IMG/VR virus record: IMGVR_UViG_3300036852_000419
Location: 1 to 53,263 of that record
DNA: 53,263 bases
Source: a virus
Strand: one strand, 5' to 3'
Program-made: the position numbers and the translations under genes
Shown here: positions 18,986 to 44,625 of the stretch, one piece after another
Layout: each line of letters begins with the position of its first letter
Position numbering within the stretch: position 1 is the first letter of the stretch
The notes under the pieces: generated by a model
The model's input: only the letters and a program-made list of their open reading frames with translations
Database searches by the model: none
Told to the model about the DNA's origin: nothing

Positions 18986-21388
18986 TCATGGAGTTGTGCA
19001 ATAGCTGATTGAGAGGGACCAGCCGGGGGAGCCGAGAGCGAGGTGACCGTCGAAATCACGGAGATAGTGTGCGTTCCAGCCCGTGCCAGCGGTATCCCAG
19101 TACCAGACGAAAGCGTAGCTATCCACGGGAATGCTGTTGCTGAGAGCGTAGGCAAGAAAGTCGGCCTGGAGATGAGCTTTCCACCAGAGAATGAGATCGG
19201 CATCATAGACCGTGTTCGGGTCGTCAGTGATGAGCGCGCCGTCGTTGCGCACGGGGAGACTGGTTGTGCCGTTGGTGCTATACCAGAGGTAGCCGTCGAT
19301 CTGAGTCCCGGCGCATCCGAGCACAGGTGGCGACGTGGGCGGCACGGGAGGCTCGTCTGGGACAGGAGGAGGCCAGCCTTGGTCGTCGATGAGCGGAGGC
19401 GGAGGCGGAGCGGGAGGCCAGCCGGGGGGCTCTGGGGGGTAGTCGGGGGGTGGAGCTGGCGGCGGCGTTCCCTCAGGTGGCGCCGGGGGCACGGGGTCAT
19501 CAGGATCATCAACTATCGAAGCGCAAGAATTGATTCCGTAGGTGAAGAGGAAGTTCCCACCGCACTCGCGAAAGACTTCGCAGTCTGCTTCTGCTACGCA
19601 TTGTTCATAGCGCGGCTCCGGCCAATCATAGGTCCAGAGGCGGAAGAGATCGAGCTGTGCGGGACCGTTGATTGAGAGCTTGGCTTGGAACTCGTAGCCG
19701 ATGCGCGCGATCTTGTTGGAAGCGGTTTCGCAGTCGTCGGGAGGCTGTGAGAGGAGCTTCGGGACGCGATACTGGGGCTGGTTCGGGAGCAGCGAGCAGC
19801 CGGGGAAGGTGGGCACACAGCCTTGAGTCGCGCAGTCACTCCAGCACCACTCTGAGGGCGCGGTCCAGACGGGGTAGCGGTCGGCGCGGAACGCGACACA
19901 GAAGCTCACATCTTTCACGAGATTCGAGCGGTAGAGCGTCGCGCCCATGAGACGCATGAGGTTCTTGGTAATGCCTTCGAAGCTGAAGCGATAGCTGGGA
20001 GTGTCGAGAGTCCAGGAGATCGCCTGGCTGCCGTCGGCGTCGAAGAGAGCGGAGCGAGTGACTTCGTAAAGCGAGATCTTGGAGAGCGAGTTGAGAGCGA
20101 ACGCGAAACAGCGGTCCACGCCACGGACTTGGAGATGAGAGATGTAGAGCGTGTCGAGTCCGGTCCAGAGGCCATCGTAAGCAGGGGGTGTGTCTTGGGC
20201 GAGAGACGATGCTTTCTGGAAATCGAGCGCCATGAGTCCGCGATGCACGACGCCACGCAGAGGGATCGAGACTGGCGAAGCGGTCATGAGCAGGCGGTTG
20301 TCAAAGAGCACCGCGCTGCCGTAGGCAAGGAGATCGATCTGATCGAAAGCGATGACACGGTCCATCTCGTAGCTGAGGGGGGTTGATCCCCACTTGCCTT
20401 CTTCGCGACGCGCTGCCTGAAAGCTCCTGATTCCGTCGTCAGCGCGATACCAGATGTCATTGTTAACGTTCAGCGTGGAGTAGTGACCAAGCGAGCCGTG
20501 AGAGAGCACACCCACGGTCTGGATGGGATACTCGACAACTTTCCAAAGCGTGCGGTCGAAGGGAGCGTTGACGAGGGCTGCACCGCCACTGTAGAAAACC
20601 GCGAGCGGACCCTGACCTAAAGTGGTATCGATAGTCGCCTGGGAGCGAAGAGCTGTGATCTCGTCACCCACAGTGAACGCACCGCCTTCGTTGAGAAAGT
20701 CGTTCTCGGTGAACTTGAGCACCGAGTCTCGGTAGCCATAAGCAGGCGTCCCGCTGGGTCCGAACACAAGGTCTCCCGCGATGAAGTCTCTGCCGTTGGG
20801 ATTCACGAGCCAGAGACGACCCAGCGCATATTTCATCATGCGACCGCCGGGCACTTCGCCCGCTGCGATGTTGGACTCGCGCACTGTAGCCCCGTCGTAG
20901 ATCAGCGGCACGCTCCAGCCGCCGTCTTGCCTGATCACGAACATCTCTGCTTGCTCGAACCAGACCTGAGGTTGCCAGGGCTGTGAGGCGGTCGCGGGAG
21001 TCATGTCAGTCACGATGAACGTGAGCGGATCGATGACGTAGAAGCGACCAGAGATGCTGCACAGGAGCTTGGAGACGCCAGCGTAGCGATAGATGAACCC
21101 GCCTTGCCAGAAGCCGGACTCGAAAGCGAGCTGCTCAGCCTCGGAAGCGAAGATCAGCGGACGGCAGAGAATCCCGGGGCGCTGCTTGGGAGTGCCGGAG
21201 CGAAACTGGGTGTTGGTGGCGAAAGAGAGTTGGTCTTGAGCGAGCTGGTTGGGAGAGACGCCAGAGTGAACACCGCGACCGATGTAGGAGAATCCGTCGA
21301 TGATTCGGCGCTGGTCTGAGACGCTGATACTAACCAACCTCCTTTTCCAGCCAAATGCCTGCATAGCACTGCACGCCGCCAAAAGCAT
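18986..21388 (-). CDS. Tail nozzle protein (T7 gp12-like) with proline-rich linker
   Basis: 800 residues. The N-terminal ~600 residues have repeated short strands and Gly/Tyr/Trp turns (FSYIGRGVHSGVSPNQL, GRFYVIDPLTFIVTDM, GRLWLVNPNGRDF), as in the beta-propeller nozzle of short-tailed phages. A proline-rich linker (about 628-690) joins a C-terminal Trp/Tyr-rich domain of ~110 residues, an unusual addition that may be displayed at the tail tip. The start is uncertain: ATGs at 21388 and 21364 lie inside the upstream fibre gene, and AAGGAGG at 21344-21338 precedes no ordinary in-frame start. Confidence 0.7.
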   Translation of the reverse strand: MLLAACSAMQAFGWKRRLVSISVSDQRRIIDGFSYIGRGVHSGVSPNQLAQDQLSFATNTQFRSGTPKQRPGILCRPLIFASEAEQLAFESGFWQGGFIYRYAGVSKLLCSISGRFYVIDPLTFIVTDMTPATASQPWQPQVWFEQAEMFVIRQDGGWSVPLIYDGATVRESNIAAGEVPGGRMMKYALGRLWLVNPNGRDFIAGDLVFGPSGTPAYGYRDSVLKFTENDFLNEGGAFTVGDEITALRSQATIDTTLGQGPLAVFYSGGAALVNAPFDRTLWKVVEYPIQTVGVLSHGSLGHYSTLNVNNDIWYRADDGIRSFQAARREEGKWGSTPLSYEMDRVIAFDQIDLLAYGSAVLFDNRLLMTASPVSIPLRGVVHRGLMALDFQKASSLAQDTPPAYDGLWTGLDTLYISHLQVRGVDRCFAFALNSLSKISLYEVTRSALFDADGSQAISWTLDTPSYRFSFEGITKNLMRLMGATLYRSNLVKDVSFCVAFRADRYPVWTAPSEWCWSDCATQGCVPTFPGCSLLPNQPQYRVPKLLSQPPDDCETASNKIARIGYEFQAKLSINGPAQLDLFRLWTYDWPEPRYEQCVAEADCEVFRECGGNFLFTYGINSCASIVDDPDDPVPPAPPEGTPPPAPPPDYPPEPPGWPPAPPPPPLIDDQGWPPPVPDEPPVPPTSPPVLGCAGTQIDGYLWYSTNGTTSLPVRNDGALITDDPNTVYDADLILWWKAHLQADFLAYALSNSIPVDSYAFVWYWDTAGTGWNAHYLRDFDGHLALGSPGWSLSISYCTTP

Positions 21389-22589
21389 TCGCGATCCCGA
21401 AGCCGTCGCCTGCGTTCAGGGTCTCGCACTGCGCTTGGATTCTGATGTCCTCCGTCGCGGCTGTGATCGTGATACGGGCCTCGCCTTCGCTAGTGCTCAT
21501 GCAGGTGTCGGCAGCGGCGGATTTAGCGTTCGAGCCATAGCCAATGATCGCAGCAGTCGTGACATTGAAGAGCCGCGATTGAAAGCGATCCACCTGATAA
21601 CCGTGCATGTGCCAGTGGACGCGATAGACTCCGGTGGCCAGTGTGATCGTGTTAGCTGCAATTGAGCCTAGTCCGCCTGTGTCAGCGACCTCCGTGTTGA
21701 GCGGAACCGTGGCCCAGCCTGCGGCGGGATCGAAATCGCCTGCATTTGTGCCCGCAGCAAGCTGATGCTGATAGATGAGAATGTCCTGAGGCGTGCGCTG
21801 AACTCCGAGCGTGGTGCGCATCGCAGTGACTGTGGCATCGTCAATGACACTGCGCCCTGCGGCTGTGAGAGGGGTCTCTGCCCAGGTGTCAACACCTGTG
21901 GTGTAGGCGATGCGATCTGCCGCAGTGCCGAGAAGTGCGATGCTCGTGAGCGTGGCATCGAAAGCTTGAACAGTGACTCCGATGTCGGCGGGTTCGAGGC
22001 CGGTGGTGGGGGAGAGATAGTCGGTGCCGTCAGCAGCTATTGAAACGACGCCTGTGCCGGTAGTAGAGCGGAGGATGCCTGTAGCGAGCGCAGAGAGTGG
22101 CTGTTCGTTCGTGAGCGTCGCGTTGGGAGTCTGAGTGATATAGGTCGCGTTAACAGGCGCGGGAGAAGCTGCGGCAGCGCCTGCGGGACCTGTCACACCA
22201 CTGGGAGAGACTTTGCTATCGTTCGGAATAGCTGTCGCGGGCGCGGCGTTATCGGGATAAGTGCTCGTAGCTGCATCTTCGAGGTTCGTGAGCGTGACTC
22301 CTACGCCGTTGACGTTGAGAGCAGCCACGCGCATGTAACCAGCGACCTGGATGAAAAGCGTCTGACCAAGCGCCATCCAGGTATTGTCATCGACGACAGT
22401 GACGACGTTTGCGAGTTCAGCAGGCATCGTGAAGCCGCCATCGAGAAGAGTAAAAGCGTTAACGCCATCTGTGCCGTCAGCGCCAGCGGCTCCTGCTGCG
22501 CCGGTCGCGCCGGGGACGGTTGTGACAATGGGATCGCAACAGAGATCCTCAGCGGAGCAGCTCCCACCCTGCATTATTTGTGAACTCAC
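21330..22589 (-). CDS. Tail fibre protein with collagen-like segment
   Basis: 419 residues from a GTG (or the ATG at 22574). After a Cys-rich start (GGSCSAEDLCCDP) comes a collagen-like stretch (GATGAAGAAGADGTDG, about 28-43), then repeated beta elements rich in Ala/Thr/Asp, and a C-terminal jelly-roll-like domain (about 270-419). This layout suits a trimeric fibre. First gene of the minus-strand tail operon; its 3' end overlaps the nozzle gene. Confidence 0.7.
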   Translation of the reverse strand: MSSQIMQGGSCSAEDLCCDPIVTTVPGATGAAGAAGADGTDGVNAFTLLDGGFTMPAELANVVTVVDDNTWMALGQTLFIQVAGYMRVAALNVNGVGVTLTNLEDAATSTYPDNAAPATAIPNDSKVSPSGVTGPAGAAAASPAPVNATYITQTPNATLTNEQPLSALATGILRSTTGTGVVSIAADGTDYLSPTTGLEPADIGVTVQAFDATLTSIALLGTAADRIAYTTGVDTWAETPLTAAGRSVIDDATVTAMRTTLGVQRTPQDILIYQHQLAAGTNAGDFDPAAGWATVPLNTEVADTGGLGSIAANTITLATGVYRVHWHMHGYQVDRFQSRLFNVTTAAIIGYGSNAKSAAADTCMSTSEGEARITITAATEDIRIQAQCETLNAGDGFGIANAFGGVQCYAGIWLEKEVG

Positions 22590-26211: not shown

Positions 26212-27812
26212 AGCTTTTAGTAGTGATTCCGTTCACCGCTCGCGATCTTCAGCTCACACTTGGCTTGCTAGACTGGATTTCGCATCTCGGCGGCTGCCTC
26301 GACAACCCTTGTCTGCTCGTGCAAGATTGCCGACTAGCGCAGGACACAGGGAAGTCCGTGTTCGAGAGTGCATCAAAGATCTTCAAGAACGTGGAAGTGA
26401 TCTCGACACCACATCCTCTGCAAAGCGAAGTCTGGCCAGCAGGACCAAACTGGATGTTTGAGACGACGCTCCTCCACATGCAGAAGAGTAAAGCTCAGCT
26501 CCCGTGGCTCTGGCTTGAGCCCGACGCGGTGCCAATGAAAGAGGGCTGGCTGCGCGACCTGGAGAACACCTACAACAGCGTGTGCAAGCGCAAGCCCTAC
26601 GTGGGACAAGTGATTCTGCCAGGGCTGCCTAAGATGCCGAGCGAGATGCTCTCTGGCGTCGCGATCTATCCGCCCGATGCGCATAAGCTCATGCTGGGAC
26701 CGCTCTCGCAAGGCAGGCTCCGAGTTGCGTTCGACGTGAGCACGGCGCTTCACGTCGTTCCGCATGCGCTGCACACGCGCCTGATCTTCAACTGGCACGG
26801 GCTCAAAGATCTCCCGCCGACGTTCGTGAGAGTGCTAGAGCGCGGGCATCCCAAGAATGCACTCACGCTGAAGCATATCCCGCCGCAGACGGTGCTCTTT
26901 CACAGGTGCAAGGATGGGAGCCTTATCAATCTTCTGCGCGGTGACACCGATGCCACGATCCCTCAGCTCTGGATGGCGTGGAAGATGAATACGCGGATCG
27001 AGAAGCCGGGGGTGGTCTCGATTCCAGCCGTGAAGCGCAGTGAGCGTTCACCCACTTTCTACCATGTATGTGAACGACACACGCAGCGAACGCCTCAGGA
27101 CGACAAGCGCGTCATGACAGCAGTGCGGAGTTGGATCACGCTTTACAAAACTAGGCGAGTCGTGCCCACGCATCTGTGGGAGTATGACTATCCTAGGAGC
27201 GCGAGACAGCTTGGGGATAAGCGCGATCTGCCTTATTTCAAGGATGTGATCGCGGAGGGACTGTGGAGATGCAAGCGGGACGACGACGTGATTCTGTGGA
27301 CTAACGATGATACAGTGCTGCATCCGGACGTCGTGCAAGCGCTGACCGAACGCCTCAAGACCACCGACTGCGTAGGGAGCTTTCGCGTGAACTTTGACAA
27401 GGTGACGGAAGAGAGCCTCAAGCTCACCCCCCAAGCGCTCGCGGCGAATGGTGAGAAGAACGGCGATGGCACACTGCGCATTGATCTCGGTCGTGATCTC
27501 TTCGCGTGGCGCAAGAGCTGGCTGGTGGAGAACTGGCTCGCGATTCCAGACTTCCTGCTGGGCGAGCTTGAGTTCGATGTCGTGATGGCAGTGATGGTGA
27601 GGCGGGAGAGCGGAGTGTTTACGGACAAGCGCAACGTGCTTCAGATCATGCCGGGGTGCGAAATTGACAGGGGCTATGTGCTGCATGAGAAGCATGAGCG
27701 CCAGTGGACTGCGAAGGAAGCGAAGGACAGCGCGGCGAAGATTCACAACAAGAGGCTGGCGATTGAGTTTTATGCGACGAATGGGTATCCCAGTCTGATC
27801 TCGAATTTCTGA
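26208..27812 (+). CDS. Two-domain glycosyltransferase-like protein
   Basis: 534 residues from the ATG at 26208, coupled to the previous stop. Two GT-A-type halves can be seen. The first begins MKLLVVIPFTARD and has LWLEPDAVP as its metal-site strand. The second (about 285-534) begins FYHVCERHTQRT and has ILWTNDDTVLHPD with NDD as the DxD analogue. Such proteins move sugars from nucleotide donors. First of a run of sugar-transfer genes in this operon. Confidence 0.72.
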   Translation: MKLLVVIPFTARDLQLTLGLLDWISHLGGCLDNPCLLVQDCRLAQDTGKSVFESASKIFKNVEVISTPHPLQSEVWPAGPNWMFETTLLHMQKSKAQLPWLWLEPDAVPMKEGWLRDLENTYNSVCKRKPYVGQVILPGLPKMPSEMLSGVAIYPPDAHKLMLGPLSQGRLRVAFDVSTALHVVPHALHTRLIFNWHGLKDLPPTFVRVLERGHPKNALTLKHIPPQTVLFHRCKDGSLINLLRGDTDATIPQLWMAWKMNTRIEKPGVVSIPAVKRSERSPTFYHVCERHTQRTPQDDKRVMTAVRSWITLYKTRRVVPTHLWEYDYPRSARQLGDKRDLPYFKDVIAEGLWRCKRDDDVILWTNDDTVLHPDVVQALTERLKTTDCVGSFRVNFDKVTEESLKLTPQALAANGEKNGDGTLRIDLGRDLFAWRKSWLVENWLAIPDFLLGELEFDVVMAVMVRRESGVFTDKRNVLQIMPGCEIDRGYVLHEKHERQWTAKEAKDSAAKIHNKRLAIEFYATNGYPSLISNF

Positions 27813-27815
27813 CTT

Positions 27816-28142
27816 ATGCGCTATTACCAAAACGATTACGACTCAATTCGCCGACAAGTCGAAGCAACTGAGATGGATGATAAGCCTACCTCACAAGAAC
27901 CCATGACATTAGATTGGGTGCATGATAAAGAACGCCGTCCAGCCATCGCAAGCTGGTATCGTGTGAAGCACGGATTGAGCGAGTGGTTTGCTTATCGTTC
28001 GATTCAATCAGGTGGATGGTGGGTTAAGAAGAAGCCTGATGGCTGGGCGATGAGTCCAGAAATCACTTTGTGGCGCACGCTCGACTCAATGGGAGCTATG
28101 CAAGACACGACCGCAATCGAACTAGAACCAATCGAACCATGA
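27816..28142 (+). CDS. Hypothetical protein (108 aa)
   Basis: Trp-rich and compact: DWVHDKERRPAIASWYRVKH, then WWVKKKPDGWAMSPEITLW. No known domain. Three-base gap upstream and ATGA overlap downstream keep it in the glycosyltransferase operon. Confidence 0.6.
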   Translation: MRYYQNDYDSIRRQVEATEMDDKPTSQEPMTLDWVHDKERRPAIASWYRVKHGLSEWFAYRSIQSGGWWVKKKPDGWAMSPEITLWRTLDSMGAMQDTTAIELEPIEP

Positions 28143-28384
28143 CCGACTCACACAAAGCACTTCTCTACGCACCGCACAAGCAAGTGTGCGCGGACTACTG
28201 GAGGCGACGCGCTGACGATATGCCCATGAAACTCAGGCAAGCGTTTCTCGCACGAGCTAACCAGCTCTGCCCCGTGTGGGGATTCGAAGCCAGCGACATC
28301 ATGCGCAACCCGCTCTATGAAGACTGGTGGACGAGGGTGCTGGGCTGGACGAGGGTGCTGGGCTGGAGGAGGCCGAACGGATGA
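28139..28384 (+). CDS. Hypothetical protein with tandem C-terminal repeat (81 aa)
   Basis: ATG at 28139 in an ATGA overlap. Helical, basic N-terminal part (YWRRRADDMPMKLRQAF), then a perfect duplication of six codons near the end (TRVLGW twice) from the 18-bp repeat at 28328-28363. The repeat may be recent. The stop overlaps the next glycosyltransferase start. Confidence 0.55.
   Translation: MTDSHKALLYAPHKQVCADYWRRRADDMPMKLRQAFLARANQLCPVWGFEASDIMRNPLYEDWWTRVLGWTRVLGWRRPNG
28328..28363 (+). repeat. 18-bp perfect tandem duplication
   Basis: Two adjacent identical 18-base units (28328-28345, 28346-28363). The length is a multiple of three, so the frame is kept and six residues are duplicated. 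Confidence 0.85.
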
Positions 28385-29160
28385 ACTCTGTCATTAGCTT
28401 TAGCTTGTTTGGGAGTGCGCCTCTTTATTGTCAGGGTGCGCTACGAAACGCTGAGAAGTATCCCCAGCTTCTTCCCGGCTGGCGCTGTGTCTTCTTCGTA
28501 AGCTCTGACGTGCCTCAGAACGTGAAGCTCAAGCTCAAGCAAGCGGGTGCGGAGCTGCGAGACCCGGACCCACAGATCTCGAACGGGATGTTTTGGCGGT
28601 TTACTGTGCTGGACGACCTCAAAGTGCAGCGCGCGATCTTCCGTGACACAGACTCACGACCTAGCCAGCGAGAAGTTCTCGCGCTCAAGGAATGGGAAAA
28701 GAGCAGCAAGCCATTTCACTCAATGGCTGACCATGTGCATCACACGCTGCCCTTGGGCGGCGGGCTTTGGGGGGTGGATTTCTCGAAGTTTCGCGACGCG
28801 GTCTCTACGCCTCATCTCAACGACAAGCTAGAGTCAATCATTGAGCGCACTCCCTGCGTTCCACATCTCTTGCGTCACGTCACGGAAGCTATCGTGAAGT
28901 CCCGCCTCGCCACGCGCCCTTACAAGCGCGAGACCAGCTACAGTCTCGACCAGACCTTTCTCACTCACTTCATCTGGCCGCTCGCGAAGAAGCACGGGGT
29001 GCTGAGACATGATCTGGCGACGAGACACTTGTTCAGGGAGAGCGTGCCTTGGCCGGGAGGGAGTGGATTCTCAGACCTCTCGTTCGTTGGTGAAATCATT
29101 GACCAGAACGAACAACCGAACTGGAATCACCGTTTCCGAAGATTGAACTATCTGGCATGA
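28381..29160 (+). CDS. Glycosyltransferase-like protein (DxD type)
   Basis: 259 residues from the ATG overlapping the previous stop. FRDTDSRPS (about 91-99) is a clear DxD metal site following a beta strand (QRAIFRD), as in GT-A enzymes. YSLDQTFLTHFIWP lies in the acceptor half. Donor and acceptor cannot be told. Coupled to the next gene by ATGA. Confidence 0.7.
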   Translation: MNSVISFSLFGSAPLYCQGALRNAEKYPQLLPGWRCVFFVSSDVPQNVKLKLKQAGAELRDPDPQISNGMFWRFTVLDDLKVQRAIFRDTDSRPSQREVLALKEWEKSSKPFHSMADHVHHTLPLGGGLWGVDFSKFRDAVSTPHLNDKLESIIERTPCVPHLLRHVTEAIVKSRLATRPYKRETSYSLDQTFLTHFIWPLAKKHGVLRHDLATRHLFRESVPWPGGSGFSDLSFVGEIIDQNEQPNWNHRFRRLNYLA

Positions 29161-29876
29161 AAGAGATTTTACTAGCTTCGCATTTAGGGCTGGGGGATGG
29201 ACTTTTGATCAACGCCATCGCGCGACGCCTCGCCGAAACCTGTGCTGTCTCTGTGATCTGCAAGCCTCACAATTCAACCACTCTCGCCTTCCAGTGGCGC
29301 GACAGCGACCGAATCACCCTCGTCGAAGCCGATGACGACGCTCAAGCGCGCAAGGGCATTGCTGAGATGCGCAAGCACGGTAAGGAAGTGCTGGGGTTGG
29401 GATTCTTTGCGAAAGAGAAATTCGAGCCTCAAAGCGAGTTTGACCGCGTGTTCTATCGACAGACAGGCGTCGAGCACACAGAGCGATGGAACGGGTTCAA
29501 GTGCGCGAGGCAGGAGAGCAGGGAGATCGAAGTACCGAGCGGGAAGTATTGCTTTGTGCATGATGATCCCTCTCGAAACTTCGTGATCCCTCCTGAAGCC
29601 CTCCCGCTCAAGCGTCTCAAGATCGTGCGTCCGAGCAGGGATCTCAAGAACCGCAACGGCGACCCGTGCATTCTGTTTGATTACTGGGGGTGGCTGGACG
29701 GAGCGCAGGAGATCCATTGTTTCGATAGTTCATTCGCTATCATGGTGGATCATTTGCATTTACCTAAGTTCGAAAATAAACGACTTGTCTTACACTTAGG
29801 CTTAAGATCGAATGAATATCCACCTGCACGCATGAAGAACTGGGAAATTTTACGCCATAACACCTTCAAAGCATGA
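29157..29876 (+). CDS. GT-B-type glycosyltransferase-like protein
   Basis: 239 residues. HLGLGDGLLINAIARRLAE (9-27) matches the opening of heptosyl/GT9-type GT-B enzymes, and IHCFDSSFAIMVDHL (about 186-200) fits the conserved donor-site helix. The protein is shorter than most GT-B enzymes. Part of the coupled operon. Confidence 0.6.
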   Translation: MKEILLASHLGLGDGLLINAIARRLAETCAVSVICKPHNSTTLAFQWRDSDRITLVEADDDAQARKGIAEMRKHGKEVLGLGFFAKEKFEPQSEFDRVFYRQTGVEHTERWNGFKCARQESREIEVPSGKYCFVHDDPSRNFVIPPEALPLKRLKIVRPSRDLKNRNGDPCILFDYWGWLDGAQEIHCFDSSFAIMVDHLHLPKFENKRLVLHLGLRSNEYPPARMKNWEILRHNTFKA

Positions 29877-30358
29877 AACAAATATCGCTCTCTCGTGGTT
29901 TTAAAGCAATGGTCGATGACTGCGATTATGACCGTATCGGTCAATACACGTGGTCAGTGAAACAATGCAAAGGCTCTATCTACGCACATCGCCAAGTTTA
30001 CCTGCCCCATAAAACTACAGAGACAATGCACCGCTTTGTTCTGGGCCTTAAAATCGGAGATCAGGAAATTGATCATAAAGATGGCAATGGATTGAACAAC
30101 ACGCGTGAGAATCTCAGGCTAGCTACGCGTGGTCAAAATATAGCTAATCGACAGCCTTATAAAAATTCTCCATTGGGTTTCAAGGGCGTCAAGAAACAGA
30201 AGAATCGTTATCTATGCCGTGTGGGTCCGGGCGGGACCACTTATGTAGGCTCGTTCAAGACGCTTATTGAAGCCTCGCTCGCACGCGACTATTGGGCAGT
30301 GCATCTTCACGGTGAATTTGCTCAACTCAATCCTTACCCCAAGGATCTCGCAATATGA
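29873..30358 (+). CDS. HNH-AP2 homing endonuclease
   Basis: 161 residues. MHRFVLGL (52-59), DHKDGNGLNNTRENLRLAT (67-85) form the HNH catalytic core; residues about 101-150 (GFKGVKKQKNRYLCRV, YVGSFKTLIEASLARD) are an AP2 DNA-binding domain. This pairing is a well-known phage homing enzyme type. It is AT-richer than its neighbours and interrupts the glycosyltransferase run, so it was likely inserted, although its ends now overlap by ATGA. Confidence 0.9.
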   Translation: MKQISLSRGFKAMVDDCDYDRIGQYTWSVKQCKGSIYAHRQVYLPHKTTETMHRFVLGLKIGDQEIDHKDGNGLNNTRENLRLATRGQNIANRQPYKNSPLGFKGVKKQKNRYLCRVGPGGTTYVGSFKTLIEASLARDYWAVHLHGEFAQLNPYPKDLAI

Positions 30359-30417
30359 CCACTGCTCACATTATCACACTCCTTCTGGCCGCACTCCACC
30401 AATTCAATGAGTCCTAA
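30355..30417 (+). CDS. Possible 20-residue leader peptide
   Basis: An ATG overlapping the endonuclease stop opens 20 codons with a hydrophobic core (IITLLLAALHQF). It ends inside the start of the next gene and may only keep ribosomes moving to it. Confidence 0.25.
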   Translation: MTTAHIITLLLAALHQFNES

Positions 30418-31234
30418 CACACCGCTTCTATTTTTCACACTGGTCTTGGACGGTCATCCGTTCCTGCCGCTCATCTATTCTGAACTGCGAAAGCTAGACT
30501 TCGAATGGTCATGGTGGGTGATGGAAGGTGTAGCCGCAGCTCAAAATTGTTCGAAGTGGTGCAAGCAGCTTCCCCCTCGCCTCTCTCGCGACGGCACCAC
30601 TGGCTACCTCGAAGCGCTCGCGAGCTTTGACAAGAGAGTGCTTCATGTGCCTCGCGACCTCTGGCCCGGCGGCAAAGTCCAGATGTGCAACTTCCCGCTT
30701 CAACAGCTTCACGAGCCGCGCTTGCTCTGGCAGATTGACAGTGACGAAATCTGGACCGCTGAACAGATCAAGACCATGAGAGCGCTGTTCATTCGGAACA
30801 AGGCTAAGAACTGTGCTTACTTTAGGTGTCGCTACTTCGTGGGTCCTGACATTATGATCACGAGTCGTGAGGGCTTTGGAAACAACAGCGCATACGAGTG
30901 GCATCGTGTGTGGAAGATTGAGCCGGGGACGAGATTTGTGAGTCATGAGCCTCCGAAGCTGGAGGGAGCGGGATCGAAGTGGAATCCGATTCCGTTCACG
31001 CACGAGGAGACTGAGAAGGAAGGGCTGGTGTTTGATCACTGGGCATGGGCTACGCCTGCTCAAGTCACAATGAAAATGGATTACTATGGATCTCCGAACA
31101 ACGAAAAAGGTGCGCTCTATGCTGGGCTGAGGGAGAAATGGCGAGCACTTCAGAGAAATGAGAAGTGGCCAGTGGCTCAGCTCAGTGAATTTATGCCTTT
31201 TGTGGGCGAGAACGTGACAGCCAATCGAATATGA
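30407..31234 (+). CDS. Glycosyltransferase-like protein (family 2 style)
   Basis: 275 residues. LLFFTLVLDGHPFLPLIY opens a GT-A fold, and LWQIDSDEIWT (about 109-119) carries the DxD site. HRVWKIEPGTRFVSHEPPK and later FDHWAW resemble the acceptor half of plant and bacterial GT2/GT17-like enzymes. Overlaps the methyltransferase gene by four bases. Confidence 0.72.
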   Translation: MSPNTPLLFFTLVLDGHPFLPLIYSELRKLDFEWSWWVMEGVAAAQNCSKWCKQLPPRLSRDGTTGYLEALASFDKRVLHVPRDLWPGGKVQMCNFPLQQLHEPRLLWQIDSDEIWTAEQIKTMRALFIRNKAKNCAYFRCRYFVGPDIMITSREGFGNNSAYEWHRVWKIEPGTRFVSHEPPKLEGAGSKWNPIPFTHEETEKEGLVFDHWAWATPAQVTMKMDYYGSPNNEKGALYAGLREKWRALQRNEKWPVAQLSEFMPFVGENVTANRI

Positions 31235-31722
31235 GTGAACCTAAGGGACAGATCCTGCCAGATAGTGAGTTCGGCGACCTGCTGACGAGTCTTGCGACAC
31301 AGAGCCAGACGATTCTTGAGATCGGCACCTGGCACGGCAAGGGCAGCACGCTCTGCCTGGCACGAGGTTTGAAGCGACCAGATCAGCACATGTGGACCGT
31401 GGATCGGGACAAAGCCGTGTGGGAGGAAGCGCGAGGCTACTACAAACATGAGCCGAGAATCACTTTCCTGAACGCTCGCACTGTGGATGTGTTGACGCAG
31501 CTTCCGATAGAGTTCGATCTCGTGCTCTTCGACGGAGCAGACGAGGATACGAACGAAGAGTTTGATCTGCTACTACCAAGACTCAACCGCTTCGTAGCGC
31601 TCGACGACACGAACGTGCAAAAAAACGAACGTCAGGTGAAGCTGCTCACTGCATGGAACTGGAAGCTCATCAAGCATCGCACCGGCGACCGCAACGGCTG
31701 GGCAGTGTTTGAACGGCCATGA
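31231..31722 (+). CDS. Class I SAM-dependent methyltransferase
   Basis: 163 residues. TILEIGTWHGKGST (about 28-41) is the glycine-rich SAM loop, WTVDRDK (52-58) the acidic second strand, and FDLVLFDGADED (about 91-102) the third. VALDDTNV follows as in O-methyltransferases of the Methyltransf_24 type. Within a sugar-transfer operon it may methylate the added glycan. Coupled on both sides by ATGA. Confidence 0.8.
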   Translation: MSEPKGQILPDSEFGDLLTSLATQSQTILEIGTWHGKGSTLCLARGLKRPDQHMWTVDRDKAVWEEARGYYKHEPRITFLNARTVDVLTQLPIEFDLVLFDGADEDTNEEFDLLLPRLNRFVALDDTNVQKNERQVKLLTAWNWKLIKHRTGDRNGWAVFERP

Positions 31723-32387
31723 CACCGAATCTTCAAGTAGTGGTGCTCGCGCATGGGAATGGAGTGGCTGCGTTCAGACAGCACGAGAAATTCTGGCTCG
31801 CGCACAAAGCTCCGCTGCTCGTGATCTGTCCTGAAAATGATCCTCTGAAGTCTTCACACGAGACTCACAAGGTCGCACAGGCAGCGCACAGCGGAGAGCA
31901 GGCAGCGCAGCGTCTTGGCGACATGCTTTATCTCTTAGAAGCGCGTTCGTGGGATCAGTGCATTATCTATGAGTATGATAGCTTTCTGCTGACACCGCGA
32001 TTGCCAGAGCCTCACGGACTCTATGGCATCACATTCCGCAACCAGGAAGCTCCCAAGTTTATGGCTCCGACCTATGTGAATCCGCCGTGGTTTGTGGATA
32101 GGAGGTCGTTTGATCTAATGATGGCAAAAGCGAAAGCTTATCCGACGGTGAAGGAGCTGGGGTTTGCGGATAGGTTCATCTCAGCGCTCGCTTTCCTAGC
32201 AGGCATCCCGATTCTCTCTTATGATCCTCCCGGCTATAGCAAAGGCACGATCACTTATAGTGATCTTCCACATCTGGATGCGCGGATCAAATATGACCAC
32301 TGCTATGCTTTCCATGGCATCAAACAGAGCTTCGTGCTCAAAGCGATAGAAGACTTCTGGGATGAAGCGAATCCACTCGCAACGTGA
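31719..32387 (+). CDS. Glycosyltransferase-like protein (222 aa)
   Basis: Short GT-A-like protein: LQVVVLAHGNGVAAF start, IIYEYDSFLL (about 87-96) as a DxD-like site, and a downstream YDHCYAFHG. It lacks a long acceptor domain, so donor type and activity are unsure. Last sugar-transfer gene before the portal. Confidence 0.55.
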   Translation: MTPNLQVVVLAHGNGVAAFRQHEKFWLAHKAPLLVICPENDPLKSSHETHKVAQAAHSGEQAAQRLGDMLYLLEARSWDQCIIYEYDSFLLTPRLPEPHGLYGITFRNQEAPKFMAPTYVNPPWFVDRRSFDLMMAKAKAYPTVKELGFADRFISALAFLAGIPILSYDPPGYSKGTITYSDLPHLDARIKYDHCYAFHGIKQSFVLKAIEDFWDEANPLAT

Positions 32388-37337: not shown

Positions 37338-37433
37338 TCAGCTCCTCGGCGGCTCCTTGCAAGTGAGCGTGATAGTAATGATCGCGCCCACTCCGACGCC
37401 TGCCAAAAAGCTCGCTATCAGGAGCCAGATCAT
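37338..37433 (-). CDS. Small membrane peptide (31 aa)
   Basis: Starts in an ATGA overlap with the upstream 87-residue gene. One hydrophobic helix (MIWLLIASFLAGVGVGAIIT) and a short polar tail. Last gene of the minus-strand lysis-type cluster; could be a second holin or antiholin. Confidence 0.5.
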   Translation of the reverse strand: MIWLLIASFLAGVGVGAIITITLTCKEPPRS

Positions 37434-37693
37434 TTTCTGAGTGCAGTAGCGGGTGTCGAATCCAAGCGTTTCAAGCGCTCATCTATCCTCACCAGAATTT
37501 CATGATCAATGTCCCGCTTCTCGCGAATCTCAGTGATAGCTTTCCAAGCGAGCGCATTGTTCGTCACGATAGCTTTCTCGGCAAGCTCAAGTCGATAAGG
37601 AATGATCGCCCAGGCTCCGATAGCGCCCAGAATACCTGCTAGGAGAGCAAGCAGCTTTGCAGCTGACATGAAAGATGGTTTGGAGTCAGTCAT
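37430..37693 (-). CDS. Membrane-anchored coiled-coil protein, possible inner-membrane spanin
   Basis: 87 residues: hydrophobic helix (about 10-32, SAAKLLALLAGILGAIGAW) then a charged helix (about 35-78, ITEIREKRDIDHEILVRIDERLK). That topology fits an i-spanin, and the neighbouring lipoprotein would be its partner. In diderm-host phages spanins fuse inner and outer membranes at lysis. A holin accessory is an alternative. Confidence 0.45.
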   Translation of the reverse strand: MTDSKPSFMSAAKLLALLAGILGAIGAWAIIPYRLELAEKAIVTNNALAWKAITEIREKRDIDHEILVRIDERLKRLDSTPATALRK

Positions 37694-37902
37694 TGCCGTT
37701 TGATCGTGATGGTGCCATCTGGCGCGATAGTAGTCACACTGTTAGTGCCGGGGTTCGCACGTTGAAGTGAGACATTGCCGTAGATGGTCGTGACGCGCAT
37801 ATTGACCGTAGCGGTGTCTTTGGAGAGCGCACGAAGCAACGGAGCCGTGGAGCACCCGCTAAGGAGCAGGAGACTGAAGAGCAATAACAGGTGTAGTTTC
37901 AT
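37690..37902 (-). CDS. Small lipoprotein, possible outer-membrane spanin
   Basis: 70 residues with a signal peptide ending in lipobox LLSGC (Cys17), followed by a short beta-like part (TTIYGNVSLQ, VTTIAPDGTITIKRQ). Small lipoproteins in phage lysis clusters are usually o-spanins. The C-terminal part is more beta-rich than usual. Its start lies inside the upstream gene, a common spanin arrangement. Confidence 0.5.
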   Translation of the reverse strand: MKLHLLLLFSLLLLSGCSTAPLLRALSKDTATVNMRVTTIYGNVSLQRANPGTNSVTTIAPDGTITIKRQ

Positions 37903-38158
37903 TCTGAACTTTCTCAGCGTGCTGGCTGACAGACTGGTCTATAAACGTGCGCAACGTGGTCAAACCGACAATGAGCACTGTCAGCGCTGACTTGAACCAG
38001 TCTAGCCAGTGCATGTTCGCGAGCTGATCTGCGCTCAGGCCATCCATCTCGCTAAGCGCTGCCGTGAGAGTCGCGATAGCCATATAGAGCCCGCCACGAA
38101 AGATCACCGGCCACCAGAGCACTGTGCTAGCTGTGCTACGCTTAAGGAATTCAGTCAT
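37859..38158 (-). CDS. Holin-like membrane protein
   Basis: 99 residues with two likely membrane segments: about 13-35 (TVLWWPVIFRGGLYMAIATL) and about 55-72 (WFKSALTVLIVGLTTLRT), ending in a polar tail. Two-helix proteins of this size in lysis clusters are often holins. ATGA coupling to the fibre-like gene upstream. Confidence 0.55.
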   Translation of the reverse strand: MTEFLKRSTASTVLWWPVIFRGGLYMAIATLTAALSEMDGLSADQLANMHWLDWFKSALTVLIVGLTTLRTFIDQSVSQHAEKVQNETTPVIALQSPAP

Positions 38159-38610
38159 TGGATGAGATAGCTAAAAGTGAAATACATGGCACGATTCACA
38201 GGATCTATAGCTGTGAATTCGAGTTGAGCACGATCATTAGCAGAATCCGCATAGATAGCTGAAGCCTGACCGGAAATCTCGGTTGAAACCCCCGTGCCGC
38301 CACATTGATTAACTGACGAGAAATTAGATGCCACAGGCAAAGACACACCAAGCTGAGTCGCCACAGGTATCAGTGTGGGATCAATGTCAGCCCGACCTGA
38401 CACAAAAACCATCGATCCAACTCGGCTATACTGACAAACATAAGCTGTCGAAGCTGAGACGTTTGCGACCGCCGTGAGCACGGGCGTATAAGTTCCACTC
38501 GAAACTTGAGCAACATTATTCAGATTATCAACAGAAGTGGCTGAGTGTGCAACCCACCAAAACAGCATAATCGCCAATAAGCCAACCCAGAATATACGCG
38601 AGATTTTCAT
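38155..38610 (-). CDS. Secreted-type fibre-domain protein (151 aa)
   Basis: ATG at 38610 overlaps the stop of the spike gene. The first ~24 residues form a Sec-type signal or membrane anchor (MKISRIFWVGLLAIMLFWWV). The remainder (SGTYTPVLTAVANVSASTAY, VGSMVFVSGRADIDPT) matches a beta-sandwich domain seen at the ends of phage fibres. A signal peptide on such a domain is unexpected for a virion part. Confidence 0.55.
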   Translation of the reverse strand: MKISRIFWVGLLAIMLFWWVAHSATSVDNLNNVAQVSSGTYTPVLTAVANVSASTAYVCQYSRVGSMVFVSGRADIDPTLIPVATQLGVSLPVASNFSSVNQCGGTGVSTEISGQASAIYADSANDRAQLEFTAIDPVNRAMYFTFSYLIQ

Positions 38611-40724
38611 GGACTCGGTTCCATTAGCAACCATGCCACAGTGCTTGTGTCACCGTTTGCGCTGCTTGTGATCGTAAATGACGTTGAGGCTGTGCGCGCG
38701 CTCACTCTCACGAAGCCCACAGTACCTCCGTCTGCGTTGCCAGTGAGAAAGATCCTAGTATTCGCCGTAACGCTTGTGTTGTTTACAACCACGCTAGCCG
38801 GACTTCCACCATCAAGAACAGCGGTTCCCATACGAGCATTGGAGCCCTCCTTAACTCTGAATCCAGCACCAGCTACCGATGTCTGAATATGCGAAATGGC
38901 TGATATTACGCCCGAGCCAGGATCAGATTCAGCACCTACATTAAGACTCCCGTTTATGGCAACTTTAGCTAGAGGAGCCGTAAATCCCCCCACACCTAGA
39001 TTCTGCCCCACGGTACTGATAAATAGATAAAGATTTCCATCTTGTTTAAACTCCGTGATGGTATTAGCTCCAGACGCAGTTGAGTCTGTATGAAGTTCAA
39101 GTGACCCAGTGGCGGAGTTTCCATCGATTTTAGCGAATGGCGTTACACCCGCTCTTTGGAACCTTAAAACAGGCGTGCTGCCGGAAATCACTAAGGTAGC
39201 AGCTGGGTCATTTGTCCCGATACCCACATTAGAGTTTAATTCTATACTTCCTGTGCCTGAAGGAAGAATACTGAAGCTTATATTATCGTCTCCTGAGCCC
39301 GCAGTATCAGCGGCCAAAGTAATGCGGTTAGAAGCGATTGTGGTTTTTAAGCGTTCGTGATTGCCTCCATTGTCATTGAGTCTCTGTGGGGCGTAAACAG
39401 TTCCACCTTGCGGGGTATAAAAATCAGGTGTGAGAAAGACCCCTTGGTCTAATAAAGTTTGAAACCATGCATTAGTAGCCGTTCCGACACAGTCGGAAAA
39501 CAGTGAAGGAATCGAAAATATCCCACCACTGACGGTATTATTCGACGCAAATACAATAGGGCGATGTGTGGCGGTCCATGCAGTTGACCATTTTCCACCT
39601 GTGATCTGTGTATTAATCAATAATCTATTTCGATTTGCACCGCGAACAGATGGGGTTGCAAAATCCCATGCTAAGCCAAGTCTGAATAGATCATAAGTTA
39701 TAGACTCACTAAACATCTGATCAAAACAAATACTCCTAGTTCCTGTTTCATCCCCTTGATTCAAAGGATCTATATGAACCCCAACCAAACATGATTCTAT
39801 TCTAGGAGTCGTGAAAATCTGATTCGACACTCTGGTCGTGTTATCTGTAGTCAGAATTAGTATTCCGTAATGGCATTGCTGTGCTGCAAATCCCGTCCAG
39901 TTCGCAAGAGATGAATTTCCGTCGCAATGCAATCCTATAAAATTATCCATGCTGGCAACCTTCGTTGCGTTGACCGGAAACGCAAACTCTGTCCTCAACC
40001 CTTTATAGCAACGACGTATAAGAATGTTATCCAATCTGACATCAAGCGCATTTAACACTTCCAGACCAACTGTAGTGGTTGTATTAGTGACTACACCTAT
40101 GGGATTTGAGGGCTCAGGACCGAGAATGTAGAGATTTCGAATTGCTGTAAATCCGCGTTCATTCACGTTGGCGGCTGACGTAGCTCCTATTTTAAGAAGG
40201 CTCCCAGAAGTTAATCCAGAAGCTGAAAAATCAAGCGTAGCTCCGTTGCCTTCAATGACCCAGGTTTGAACCGGGCTATTCACAGAGTCACTCTGGAGAG
40301 TTTTTACTGAAGTTAGAACGTAAGTCTTTGGTTGAAGTTTTAAAGTGGTTCCGTTAGTGCGCAGAAAATCTAACCCAGCTTGAAATGCTGAATCCCCAGA
40401 GCCGAAATATTCTGGAAATACCTCACCATCAAATTGTCTTATCCATCTCCCTGCTACTCCCGTGGACGGAAATACTATGCCGAGATTCGTGGCTGTGACG
40501 CTTGCAGGAGTGAAAAAGAATAGGCCACCTCCGCCATCATTAGCTGTGACACGGCCTGTAACGAGAGCAGAGAGACGGCTGTTGGCAGGGACGTTCTGCA
40601 CTGTGGCAGCAACCATCTCAGTTACGGTTTGATAACGAACTGTAGGAGTTGTGCCTGTGCCGCCTTGAGATAATGCGAGAATGATGCTCATCGCGAAGAT
40701 AAGCAATGAAGCTAGATGTTTCAT
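38607..40724 (-). CDS. Tailspike-like beta-helix protein with signal peptide
   Basis: 705 residues from the ATG at 40724. Residues 1-20 look like a Sec signal peptide (MKHLASLLIFAMSIILALS). About 80-500 show the right-handed beta-helix style of pectate-lyase-like spikes (FGSGDSAFQAGLDFLRT, TLKLQPKTYVLTS, repeating Asn/Thr/Gly turns). The last ~87 residues share a domain with the 514-residue protein (KEGSNARMGTA). Could degrade host polysaccharide, either as spike or as a secreted depolymerase. The coding DNA is more AT-rich than its neighbours. Confidence 0.68.
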   Translation of the reverse strand: MKHLASLLIFAMSIILALSQGGTGTTPTVRYQTVTEMVAATVQNVPANSRLSALVTGRVTANDGGGGLFFFTPASVTATNLGIVFPSTGVAGRWIRQFDGEVFPEYFGSGDSAFQAGLDFLRTNGTTLKLQPKTYVLTSVKTLQSDSVNSPVQTWVIEGNGATLDFSASGLTSGSLLKIGATSAANVNERGFTAIRNLYILGPEPSNPIGVVTNTTTTVGLEVLNALDVRLDNILIRRCYKGLRTEFAFPVNATKVASMDNFIGLHCDGNSSLANWTGFAAQQCHYGILILTTDNTTRVSNQIFTTPRIESCLVGVHIDPLNQGDETGTRSICFDQMFSESITYDLFRLGLAWDFATPSVRGANRNRLLINTQITGGKWSTAWTATHRPIVFASNNTVSGGIFSIPSLFSDCVGTATNAWFQTLLDQGVFLTPDFYTPQGGTVYAPQRLNDNGGNHERLKTTIASNRITLAADTAGSGDDNISFSILPSGTGSIELNSNVGIGTNDPAATLVISGSTPVLRFQRAGVTPFAKIDGNSATGSLELHTDSTASGANTITEFKQDGNLYLFISTVGQNLGVGGFTAPLAKVAINGSLNVGAESDPGSGVISAISHIQTSVAGAGFRVKEGSNARMGTAVLDGGSPASVVVNNTSVTANTRIFLTGNADGGTVGFVRVSARTASTSFTITSSANGDTSTVAWLLMEPSP

Positions 40725-40731
40725 GTGAAAA

Positions 40732-41115
40732 TCAGGCCCAGCCGACATTTGTCCCGACTGTGCCTTGGAAAGTGTATTTCGCACCAGTGTCGAGAGCTGT
40801 GACGAGCTGCCCACAGAACAAGCCTGTGACCACACCGTTAGGATCAGTGGGCGTGCATCCAGGAAGTGCGTTGACAATGTTCGTGTTGATCTCACATAGA
40901 AGCTGAACCATCACGAGCCGAAGCATTCCCGCTGGCAGCGCCGCAAAGCACGCTGCATCATCCATCAGATCTTGAACATTGCATTCAGCCACAGGATCTA
41001 TCGCTTGAAGAATTCGACAGAGAAGTACTGCTTGGAGCGCATCGAGCTGGCCGCTGGTTTCGGCTGCGAAACACGCTGCATCGGCTGTGAGTTCTGAAAC
41101 CGAGCACTCAGCCAT
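40732..41115 (-). CDS. Cys-rich helical-repeat protein (127 aa)
   Basis: Two tandem units of about 38 residues, each with TADAACFAA/MDDAACFAA, then a helix ending LLCRI/LLCEI, so two Cys per unit at matching places. A beta-like C-terminal end (TALDTGAKYTFQGTVGTN) follows. A shorter relative is encoded next door. Between fibres and capsid, it may be a capsid-bound or linker protein. Function is unknown. Confidence 0.6.
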   Translation of the reverse strand: MAECSVSELTADAACFAAETSGQLDALQAVLLCRILQAIDPVAECNVQDLMDDAACFAALPAGMLRLVMVQLLCEINTNIVNALPGCTPTDPNGVVTGLFCGQLVTALDTGAKYTFQGTVGTNVGWA

Positions 41116-41121
41116 TTCATG

Positions 41122-41460
41122 TTAGGGGTTGAGAGATTGGATAATACGGCACTGAAGATAGACCTGCATTGCTTCAAGGTCTTTCGCTTGAAAGCACTCC
41201 AACGCTTTACAATCACCTAGTTCAAGGCCCTCACAAACAGTGGTCGCTTGCAAAAGTCTGAGCTGACCGGCAGAGAGACAGGTGAGATCCACCGCTGCGG
41301 CTGACTCAAGAATACTATCCCAATTTCCGCATGAAAACTCCCCATCGAGTTCTGCAAAGATAGCGCAGAGCAAGAGCAAGAGCATCTCTTTCTGTTTGCG
41401 CGCACTCGCGAACTCCAAACAAGGAGACGCTACGGCTACTGTTAAAAGATCACATGCCAT
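41122..41460 (-). CDS. Cys-rich helical-repeat protein (112 aa)
   Basis: Three degenerate units of the same type as in the neighbouring 127-residue protein: SPCLEFASARKQKEMLLLLLCAI, then AVDLTCLSAGQLRLLQATTVC split over the next unit, and ALECFQAKDLEAMQVYLQCRI in the last. Conserved Cys before and at the end of each hairpin. Probably arose by duplication. No known family name. Confidence 0.58.
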   Translation of the reverse strand: MACDLLTVAVASPCLEFASARKQKEMLLLLLCAIFAELDGEFSCGNWDSILESAAAVDLTCLSAGQLRLLQATTVCEGLELGDCKALECFQAKDLEAMQVYLQCRIIQSLNP

Positions 41461-41475
41461 GAAAGATCCTTTCGC

Positions 41476-43020
41476 TTATGGAGTCGGTTTGATAATGAGC
41501 CAGTTGACTACGCTGTCGTCTTGAGCGTCAGTGCTATTGACAGTGAACGAAACTCCGTTTGAGATCGTGTAACTTAAATGACCGAATTCAGCAGCAGTGC
41601 CGGAGACGCGCTGAATGAAAATCCGATCCCCGGTGGCTGCGCTAGTGTTAGAAACCGCGATAGTGCCGCCAGAGAGAGTAGCCGTCCCCATCCTGGCATT
41701 ACTGCCCTCTTTAATCTGAAATCCATTGCCAGCAGTGCCAAGCACAACATTTCCATTGCTCGCGGTAATTGCTCCGAGAGTCGCTGTGAGCGTGCCAGTG
41801 GCTGTGACGTTACCAGTTGTTCCCGCGTCAACAATCGTCATCAAGCTGTTTGAGCCGTCGGTGACATTCACAGTTCCATCCACGGTGTTATTCAGTGCCT
41901 CGCCGTTAACTAGAGTCAGAACTCCCGTGGATGAGAGAGTGAGCTTTGTAGTGGCTGTCTCACTCGCACCTGTCTGGAAGATGAGCGAGGAGGCGTTGCT
42001 CGTGGCAGAGAAAGTGCCTTCTGCAACTGTGGCGATGGAGCCCGCGACAAGATTCGCATCAGTGCCTGCGGCGTCAAGCGGAGCGTAGAAATTGATCCTG
42101 CCAAGCACGTCGTTGAGAACTACTGAGGGTTCTTTGGTGCCGAGAGTGAGAATCGCCCCGGATGTAGTAAGACCGCCTTGGATTTCAGTTAAAGACGCAG
42201 GTGCCGTAGTGCCGACGCCGACAAGCCCAGCACTTGTAATTCTCATCCATTCCGATATTACACCCCCAGAATTACCCGTATGAAACCGAAGAGCGCCAGA
42301 TTCGTCTCCAGCAGACCCATTCTCTTTATAACCGTCGATAATTCCCAAAGTACTAGTTGACGTTTGTGCTGTGTTGTAACCGGAAAAGTAAAGCGTCGCT
42401 CCGACACCCTGAACCATCGAAGTCGTGTCTCTTAAATATAAAACAGCATTACCGGAAGAGCCAAAACTCTTAGCTACTGTTTTATCCACGTGTAAAGCCG
42501 TCAACGGATTAGCTGTCCTGACACCTACATTGCCAGAAGTTGCGTTAAGGATCGTATTGTTACCGATATTGTTGATATGAAGATTCTTACCGCTGAAGGT
42601 CTGAATGTAAGCGATGTCGTTATCTGCGCCGATACCAAGTAAATTGGTAGCACCTGCACCACGCAAGAGTTTCCATGCATACTCTGTGTCGATAGCTGGA
42701 TTAACAGCGGCTGTCTGATAAGCCACACTCGTCGGTAGCTTCCACCAGCGACCGTTGTTGTTCACGGGCTTGAAGACTGCGTAAACGTTCGTGACAGCGC
42801 TAGAGTTACCGTCGTAGAAGAACATCCCACCCAGACCGTCGTCGCGAGCACTGCCACCACCTACCCAGGCGGTGACTTTGGCGTCGGAGCCAAAGAGCGT
42901 GATCTGGAGCAGCGCGTTGATAGAGTCCACGCGATACTGAGTGGGACCGGACTGAGCGAGCGCGGGCAAGGCTGTCGAGAGCAGAGCTAGCGTGGCGAAG
43001 AGAGAAGTGAATAGTTTCAT
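41476..43020 (-). CDS. Fibre-like protein with signal peptide (514 aa)
   Basis: ATG at 43020 gives a signal peptide (MKLFTSLFATLALLSTALPALAQ split after about residue 23). The body is beta-rich with repeated Thr/Gly/Asn turns typical of phage fibres (LLGIGADNDIAYIQT, VGVRTANPLTALHV, LTLSSTGVLTLVNG). The last 84 residues share KEGSNARMGTA and the WLI.P.P ending with the 705-residue spike-like protein. Located directly after the major capsid gene. Confidence 0.62.
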   Translation of the reverse strand: MKLFTSLFATLALLSTALPALAQSGPTQYRVDSINALLQITLFGSDAKVTAWVGGGSARDDGLGGMFFYDGNSSAVTNVYAVFKPVNNNGRWWKLPTSVAYQTAAVNPAIDTEYAWKLLRGAGATNLLGIGADNDIAYIQTFSGKNLHINNIGNNTILNATSGNVGVRTANPLTALHVDKTVAKSFGSSGNAVLYLRDTTSMVQGVGATLYFSGYNTAQTSTSTLGIIDGYKENGSAGDESGALRFHTGNSGGVISEWMRITSAGLVGVGTTAPASLTEIQGGLTTSGAILTLGTKEPSVVLNDVLGRINFYAPLDAAGTDANLVAGSIATVAEGTFSATSNASSLIFQTGASETATTKLTLSSTGVLTLVNGEALNNTVDGTVNVTDGSNSLMTIVDAGTTGNVTATGTLTATLGAITASNGNVVLGTAGNGFQIKEGSNARMGTATLSGGTIAVSNTSAATGDRIFIQRVSGTAAEFGHLSYTISNGVSFTVNSTDAQDDSVVNWLIIKPTP

Positions 43021-43080: not shown

Positions 43081-44625
43081 TTATGTGACCCAGGTGATCT
43101 CCACGTCGTTACAGGTGGGCTCGGTGAGCAGGATCTGAGTGCCTTCCTGGACCCAGAGACCAAGAGAGCTGTAGCTGGCGTTGAGGCTGACCACGAGGTC
43201 TGTGATCGTGGCCTCCGAGATTGCAGGACCAGTGACCACCGTGCCATCGCAAGTGATGGTGTTCGCGGCAATGACAAAGTTACCGTCAGCATCCTCCTCC
43301 GGCGTGAAGCTCAGCGTTGAGCCTTCGCAGCGGTCGTTGGAGCTGTTGTAGTATTGATAGGGGTAGCCAGGGTCGGCTGCGCATGTATCCACGGTAACGA
43401 TGACAGCGGCCTCGCGCTTGTGGAAGATTAGCTCGCTGAACTCCACATACTGAGGCTTGAACGCGAGCTTGAAGTCAGCGAGAAACTGACCTTTGTTCCG
43501 GCGCTTGTTCTCGATAGTGCGTCCGTTGCAATCCTCGCCGAGGTTATCCATGACGAATTGCCACTGACCACCGAGAGAGCGGTTAGCGAAGGGCATGAGC
43601 GGGTTGACGCTCTCAGTGCGAGCGATGAGGACCATGCCCGCGCGTCGATGCCAGATGTGAGACCACTGATACTGCGCGGTCTCAAAATCAGGGTTGTATT
43701 CGCTGCCAATGCCTTGAGTGGCAGCGACGTTGCGATACGGGAGCACGACCTGCATGCGGTTGGCGCTGCCAGCGGGGTCGGGGCTGTGGTTGAAGCGGAT
43801 GATGAACGGATCAACGCGCGTCACATACTGACCGAGCTGTCCGTTGAAAGCATATTTGTAGAACTTGTTCGCGGCTTCCCACTCTTGAAAGCGCCACTTG
43901 TCATTGACGTTGGAGTCAGCGATGGCTTTGTCGAGATCCCAGAGAGTATTGTAGTCGGTGACGAGTTCGATCAGCGGTGGCATGTCCTTGAAAGGCTGCT
44001 TACCGAAGTAGCCTTCGAACATGAGGCGACCGACACGGCGCTGAAGCATCTGAGGGGTGAGCTTAGAGGTCGGGATCGCTGACGGGATCATGTAGATCTC
44101 ATCGTTCCCCACCACGCTCCACGTGTAAGTGAACTCCGTCATGGTAGCGTTCGCGACCCACTTCTTGCCAGCGTGATCGGCAGCGCGCTTGCGGAGATAG
44201 AAAGACATGATGCGCGAAGTAGCAGGGCGCAGGATATCGGAGACGATCTGAGCGAAGTGCTCTTTGGCGCGCGTGACTTGGAGGATCTGATCGAAACAGA
44301 GGAGATCAGTGACCCAGCTCTGTTGTTCGAGAGAATATTCTACGCGATCATAGCCCCAGCCGATGAGGTTCTCGTTAGGGTCGCAAGGCGTTCCGATACA
44401 AGAACCTGCGGGCGTCGCCTCCCACTCCTTCGTCACATTCGGCATGACCTGCCGAAAGCGATCAAAGACGTGAGTATTGTTCGAGAAGGGCTCCCATTGA
44501 CCGGTTTCGACGTGACCAATCCAGCCGTCTTCGGGGCGAATGTCGCGGATGATTAGCTCGTCGTAGACGGGCGTTTGGGTGACTAAGAACTCTGCGAACT
44601 GCGTGCCTGTGACACATTGGCTCAT
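43081..44625 (-). CDS. Major capsid protein (putative)
   Basis: 514 residues. Long N-terminal helix-rich part, then mixed beta/alpha with Trp/Tyr-rich turns (TEFTYTWSVVGNDEIYM, LIELVTDYNTLWDLDKAI, YQWSHIWHRRAGMVLI), and a Cys-containing C-terminal domain (about 410-514). Size, own strong promoter, long leader and first place in the late minus-strand operon fit the major capsid protein. Unusually many Cys (about 10) for a capsid protein. A structural fold could not be proved by eye. Confidence 0.65.
   Translation of the reverse strand: MSQCVTGTQFAEFLVTQTPVYDELIIRDIRPEDGWIGHVETGQWEPFSNNTHVFDRFRQVMPNVTKEWEATPAGSCIGTPCDPNENLIGWGYDRVEYSLEQQSWVTDLLCFDQILQVTRAKEHFAQIVSDILRPATSRIMSFYLRKRAADHAGKKWVANATMTEFTYTWSVVGNDEIYMIPSAIPTSKLTPQMLQRRVGRLMFEGYFGKQPFKDMPPLIELVTDYNTLWDLDKAIADSNVNDKWRFQEWEAANKFYKYAFNGQLGQYVTRVDPFIIRFNHSPDPAGSANRMQVVLPYRNVAATQGIGSEYNPDFETAQYQWSHIWHRRAGMVLIARTESVNPLMPFANRSLGGQWQFVMDNLGEDCNGRTIENKRRNKGQFLADFKLAFKPQYVEFSELIFHKREAAVIVTVDTCAADPGYPYQYYNSSNDRCEGSTLSFTPEEDADGNFVIAANTITCDGTVVTGPAISEATITDLVVSLNASYSSLGLWVQEGTQILLTEPTCNDVEITWVT

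Follow-up and report, generated by a model that had tools for sequence, protein, structure and literature searches.

Predicted Sec-type leaders on three fibre/spike-like proteins of an uncultured tailed phage, candidates for virion components assembled after export

Tailed-phage particles are taught to be built in the cytoplasm, and an earlier sequence-only reading of the locus described here considered export unexpected for virion fibres. This expectation holds for some phages, since the T7 fibre, the crAss-like phi17:2 and several others are leaderless, but not for all, leader-bearing fibres being found in several phage groups. Phage DGR target proteins lack signal peptides (Benler 2018). 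Genes with signal peptides and a Gln at +1, as in two of the proteins reported here, have been described in Porphyromonas gingivalis phages (PMC10367356); these Q-rule proteins differ in that their function is unknown and that no link to fibres or virions is made there. Among signal peptidase I substrates of Bacteroidetes, approximately 71% expose Gln (PMC10653852). Our literature search, which covered few subscription journals, returned no paper describing exported virion fibres or linking signal peptides to them, and the novelty of such fibres is therefore provisional.

The closest precedent lies in cultured Cellulophaga phages. The GenBank records of phi19:1 gp101-104 and phi10:1 gp91-94 bear the note 'annotation based on experimental MS/MS proteomics analysis', and the MS/MS status of the Cellulophaga phage proteins is taken here from such record notes. 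All eight proteins passed the leader scan described below, with Gln after the predicted site in seven; phi10:1 gp90 is also MS/MS-noted and has no leader. Among the phi19:1 proteins, the PHROG matches were to a tail fibre for gp103 and to a pectate lyase for gp102. Four adjacent fibre-region genes with leaders occur in Ingeline, and similar leader-bearing runs are present in phi19:3, phi46:3, phi13:2 and Nekkels. The MS/MS notes indicate that leader-bearing fibres can be parts of the virion, with envelope contamination of the virion preparations as a possible caveat. These proteins have no detectable homology to the three proteins studied here, so that the precedent is one of kind and not of ancestry.

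In the present work the window is an IMG/VR virus record of 53,263 bp from an uncultured phage. Three of its genes, all on the minus strand, encode proteins of 514, 705 and 151 residues with hydrophobic leaders, called A, B and C below; the open reading frames lie where the sequence-only reading had placed them, and their N-termini are exactly those it quoted. A (43020..41476) starts with the leader MKLFTSLFATLALLSTALPALA, followed after the predicted cleavage site by QSG, and continues with a GGGG N-terminal domain, a repeat region resembling tail fibres and a C-terminal K1-lyase_C domain. B (40724..38607) has the leader MKHLASLLIFAMSIILALS, followed by QGG, then a GGGG N-terminal domain, a middle part that reads as beta-helix-like and K1-lyase_C at the C-terminus. 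C (38610..38155) consists of the leader MKISRIFWVGLLAIMLFWWVAHS, followed by ATS, and a single fibre-tip domain.

The leaders were screened with home-made rules for the n-, h- and c-regions and hand-set thresholds, a procedure that is not SignalP. Five of 50 selected window genes passed: A, B, C, a 70-aa lipoprotein and a call at 26169, the last being an apparent mis-start whose listed TTG start looks wrong. The background was 1.0% of internal positions passing when treated as starts. In A, B and C the scan found a positive start, a hydrophobic core, small residues at -3/-1 and no early acidic residue. A 419-aa collagen-like tail fibre (21330..22589, minus strand), which lies in a separate gene block, has no leader and serves as an internal contrast. 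Two regions on the plus strand were recorded in passing. Positions 26169-32387, upstream of the presumed portal gene, read as glycosyltransferase/methyltransferase-like genes with one methyltransferase match, and a 1161-aa protein (6220-9705) matched uracil-DNA glycosylase N-terminally and, just below the cut-off, DNA polymerase A C-terminally, an apparent fusion of the two.

A, B and C are flanked by the gene presumed to encode the major capsid protein on one side and by a cassette of holin/spanin-like genes on the other. The minus-strand order is the presumed capsid gene (514 aa, 43081..44625), A, a 112-aa protein (41122..41460, 9 Cys), a 127-aa Cys-rich protein (40732..41115, 8 Cys), B, C, and proteins of 99 aa (37859..38158), 70 aa (37690..37902) and 87 aa (37430..37693). 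The capsid assignment is based on position and conservation, as the protein has no family match and a homology search among named phages found no homologue; it was used as a marker for finding relatives, of which L002 (76% identity) and L003 (51%) are considered here. The 99-aa membrane protein, without a family match, is holin-like by position and hydrophobicity. The outer-spanin-like lipoprotein of 70 aa has a lipobox-like site and gave a weak Rz-like match, and the 87-aa membrane protein, whose gene shows an ATGA overlap with that of the lipoprotein, is a possible lysis partner. Neither Cys-rich protein has a family match. They are related to each other and share the pattern 'LxxDAxCFxxL..LLCxI' between the spike genes; the 127-aa protein is also related to a larger, 278-aa protein of L003 into which the Cys-rich relative is fused. 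In L002 the Cys-rich homologue (113 aa) of the 112-aa protein is positioned between the capsid gene and the A homologue. These small proteins are possible adaptors.

The starts of the three genes appear well supported by their sequence context. The ATG of C overlaps the stop codon of B as ATGA (4 nt), and the stop codon of C overlaps the 99-aa gene likewise, while the ATG of B lies 7 nt past the stop codon of the preceding gene. A recognisable Shine-Dalgarno core was present in only 4 of the 36 window-phage genes checked, and the start of A was therefore checked through L002. The A homologue of this relative (55% identity, aligned from residue 1) has its ATG directly after the Cys-rich gene and behind a strong Shine-Dalgarno sequence, 'AAGGACCCCTT'. 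Between the two leaders 43 of 72 nucleotides have changed (60% divergence) and 9 of 24 residues are kept, with the L002 leader still passing the scan; in simulations of neutral leaders at the same divergence 1.9% passed (4% of the stop-free ones). In the domain that follows the leader of A, 41 of 60 residues are kept in L002. The claim of the sequence-only reading that A, B and C carry Sec-type leaders is thus supported by every sequence test made (scan, starts and leader retention in L002), and we regard the leaders as real export signals, as far as such tests can indicate, on fibre/spike-like proteins.

The designation 'fibre/spike-like' was itself borne out: A and B carry K1-lyase_C, and C is homologous to a tail-protein domain. 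K1-lyase_C (Pfam PF24146) scored 65.4 bits at the C-terminus of A and 84.9 bits at that of B, for a cut-off of 27. No catalytic domain was recognised in either protein, and a PDB sequence search, which found no solved relative of K1-lyase_C spikes by sequence, was uninformative. The PHROG label 'polysaccharide deacetylase' (phrog_24355) was rejected for A and B: the best-scoring stretch reaches the C-terminal end of the profile, the match of B is confined to the final 88 profile positions, the part corresponding to K1-lyase_C, and the label is misleading because the spikes match through this C-terminal part. The N-terminal modules of A and B (leader plus GGGG-F-F/Y domain) are 30% identical over residues 1-96, with the GGGG domain directly after the leader. 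In Achromobacter phage Axy04, which is leaderless, this domain is preceded by some 250 residues of different N-terminal sequence, so that the leader of A and B occupies a place that elsewhere may belong to an attachment region. For C, a single-sequence scan of viral contigs gave no match, and a two-sequence alignment used as query gave 11 viral-contig relatives. Named homologues of its tip domain are found in the podovirus ctkAd229 and in Stenotrophomonas phage QDWS359, with 51% and 39% identity to C, respectively, across this domain. The domain is carried by a leaderless protein in most of the 11 relatives; two of them, L055 and L063, have leader-like starts, that of L063 being recognised by eye alone and failing the scan.

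Leader-bearing fibres were also seen in other uncultured phages. The fibre of L006-L012 starts with the leader MLQRLLLITLTLCSLSASA, followed by QW, and in L015 a K1-lyase_C spike of 1075 aa has a leader, as do several further proteins; the remaining viral K1-lyase_C proteins with readable N-termini are leaderless, apart from those of L014/L015. Adjoining the L015 spike is a 2044-aa leader-bearing protein (L015:5903-12034) in which Ig-like modules are repeated and a CTDCH motif occurs. From their sequences, fibres with leaders appear to recur across several phage groups (L006-L012, L015, L055, L063 and the Cellulophaga phages). The inspected fibre/structural genes of T7, crAss-like phi17:2, phi12:1, Axy04, B40-8, P12002S and 11b were without leader, and in two of these phages non-fibre genes passed the scan (B40-8 15801 and 11b 28129). 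The leaderless control fibres indicate that not every Bacteroidota phage has the trait and that it is not produced by the scan whenever fibres are examined.

We slightly favour, over all other explanations together, a model in which a tailed phage has its spike/fibre proteins A, B and C exported before they reach the virion. They would be made as Sec pre-proteins, carried across the inner membrane, relieved of their leader by signal peptidase I and folded outside the cytoplasm in a periplasmic maturation, A and B trimerising there through K1-lyase_C. All three would join virions around lysis, when the adjoining holin/spanin-like genes open the envelope; this favoured link between joining and lysis is read from gene order alone. 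We infer the cleavage, the trimerisation, the place and time of virion joining and the transfer of the precedent to the window phage. Counting against the model, besides the want of homology to the Cellulophaga proteins and the possible envelope contamination, C lacks Gln at +1, and the meeting of periplasmic spikes with cytoplasmic virions is a proposed step. The sequence-only reading had offered secreted depolymerases, surface decoys against superinfection and fibres assembled at the envelope. Assembly at the envelope, or after export, seems to fit best in view of the MS/MS notes on phi19:1 and phi10:1, and the other two options come out weaker.

One of these, that A, B and C are secreted and never enter the virion, is unlikely, albeit a serious alternative. 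B, and perhaps A, would be a depolymerase loosening surface polysaccharide outward from the cell that produces it, accompanied by small adhesins, and would aid progeny release or stop re-adsorption. The leaders themselves, the naming of K1-lyase_C after a capsule lyase, the position beside lysis-like genes and away from the leaderless tail-fibre block, and the 2044-aa leader-bearing protein of L015, which is unlike a tail fibre, all agree with it. On the other hand, comparable leader-bearing fibres of cultured phages are MS/MS-noted as virion proteins, and the want of a recognised catalytic domain in A or B speaks against an enzyme.

We give less credit to the idea that the hydrophobic N-termini are uncleaved segments by which the fibre is seated in tail or capsid, and not working signal peptides. 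The position of the leader is one that an attachment region may take in relatives that have no leader, and C has a long hydrophobic stretch; yet the three-region layout, the small-residue sites and the frequent Gln at +1 (A, its L002 homologue, B and most of the Cellulophaga cases) are hard to explain without cleavage. Together with the low Shine-Dalgarno use, the Gln at +1 of A, of the L002 homologue and of B hints at a possible Bacteroidota-like host of the window phage. A scan of genome contigs for K1-lyase_C did not point to a host, its matches being confined to two Streptomyces genomes and one Parachlamydia MAG.

It is improbable to a still greater degree that A, B and C stay on the surface of the infected cell and block or mask receptors for superinfection exclusion. 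Their export signals are compatible with this function, and domains of the receptor-binding type could occupy receptors. Inspection of the three proteins showed no lipobox or outer-membrane anchor, however, the MS/MS precedent points to virions, and the capsid- and lysis-like neighbours suggest late expression, too late for useful exclusion. Least credible of all is a mis-call of the starts, with translation beginning downstream and no leader made, which the sequence-only reading had itself raised against its claim: the scarcity of Shine-Dalgarno sites makes the starts less certain, but the ATGA overlap at the start of C, the tight junction of B, the strong Shine-Dalgarno sequence at the leader of the L002 homologue and the leader character kept at 60% nucleotide divergence argue against it.

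Should export of the spikes come first, the host secretion pathway would make part of the virion, and host secretion would be a determinant of phage infectivity. The spikes would be exposed to signal peptidase and to N-terminal glutamine cyclisation, and polysaccharide-degrading spikes could be kept from cytoplasmic precursors. For annotation, a signal peptide should not be taken to exclude a virion protein. It is conceivable, although we would stop short of calling it probable, that tailed phages of several diderm hosts have Sec-exported fibres and spikes that mature in the periplasm and are added at lysis, the leader replacing the usual attachment region and the same tip domains being exchanged between proteins with and without a leader.

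In comparison with known systems, A and B share the C-terminal PF24146 domain with K1-lyase_C tailspikes and tail fibres such as those of the Streptomyces phages GiJojo and BRock, with up to 70% identity to the C-terminus of B. C shares its type of tip domain with the tail proteins of ctkAd229 and QDWS359, and differs from the former in that the ctkAd229 domain is borne by a leaderless protein. The Cellulophaga phages phi19:1, phi10:1, phi19:3, phi46:3, Ingeline and Nekkels resemble the window phage in having a run of fibre, pectate-lyase and structural genes with Sec leaders, mostly with Gln after the site. In phi19:1 and phi10:1 these are MS/MS-noted virion proteins; for A, B and C of the window phage a virion location is proposed.
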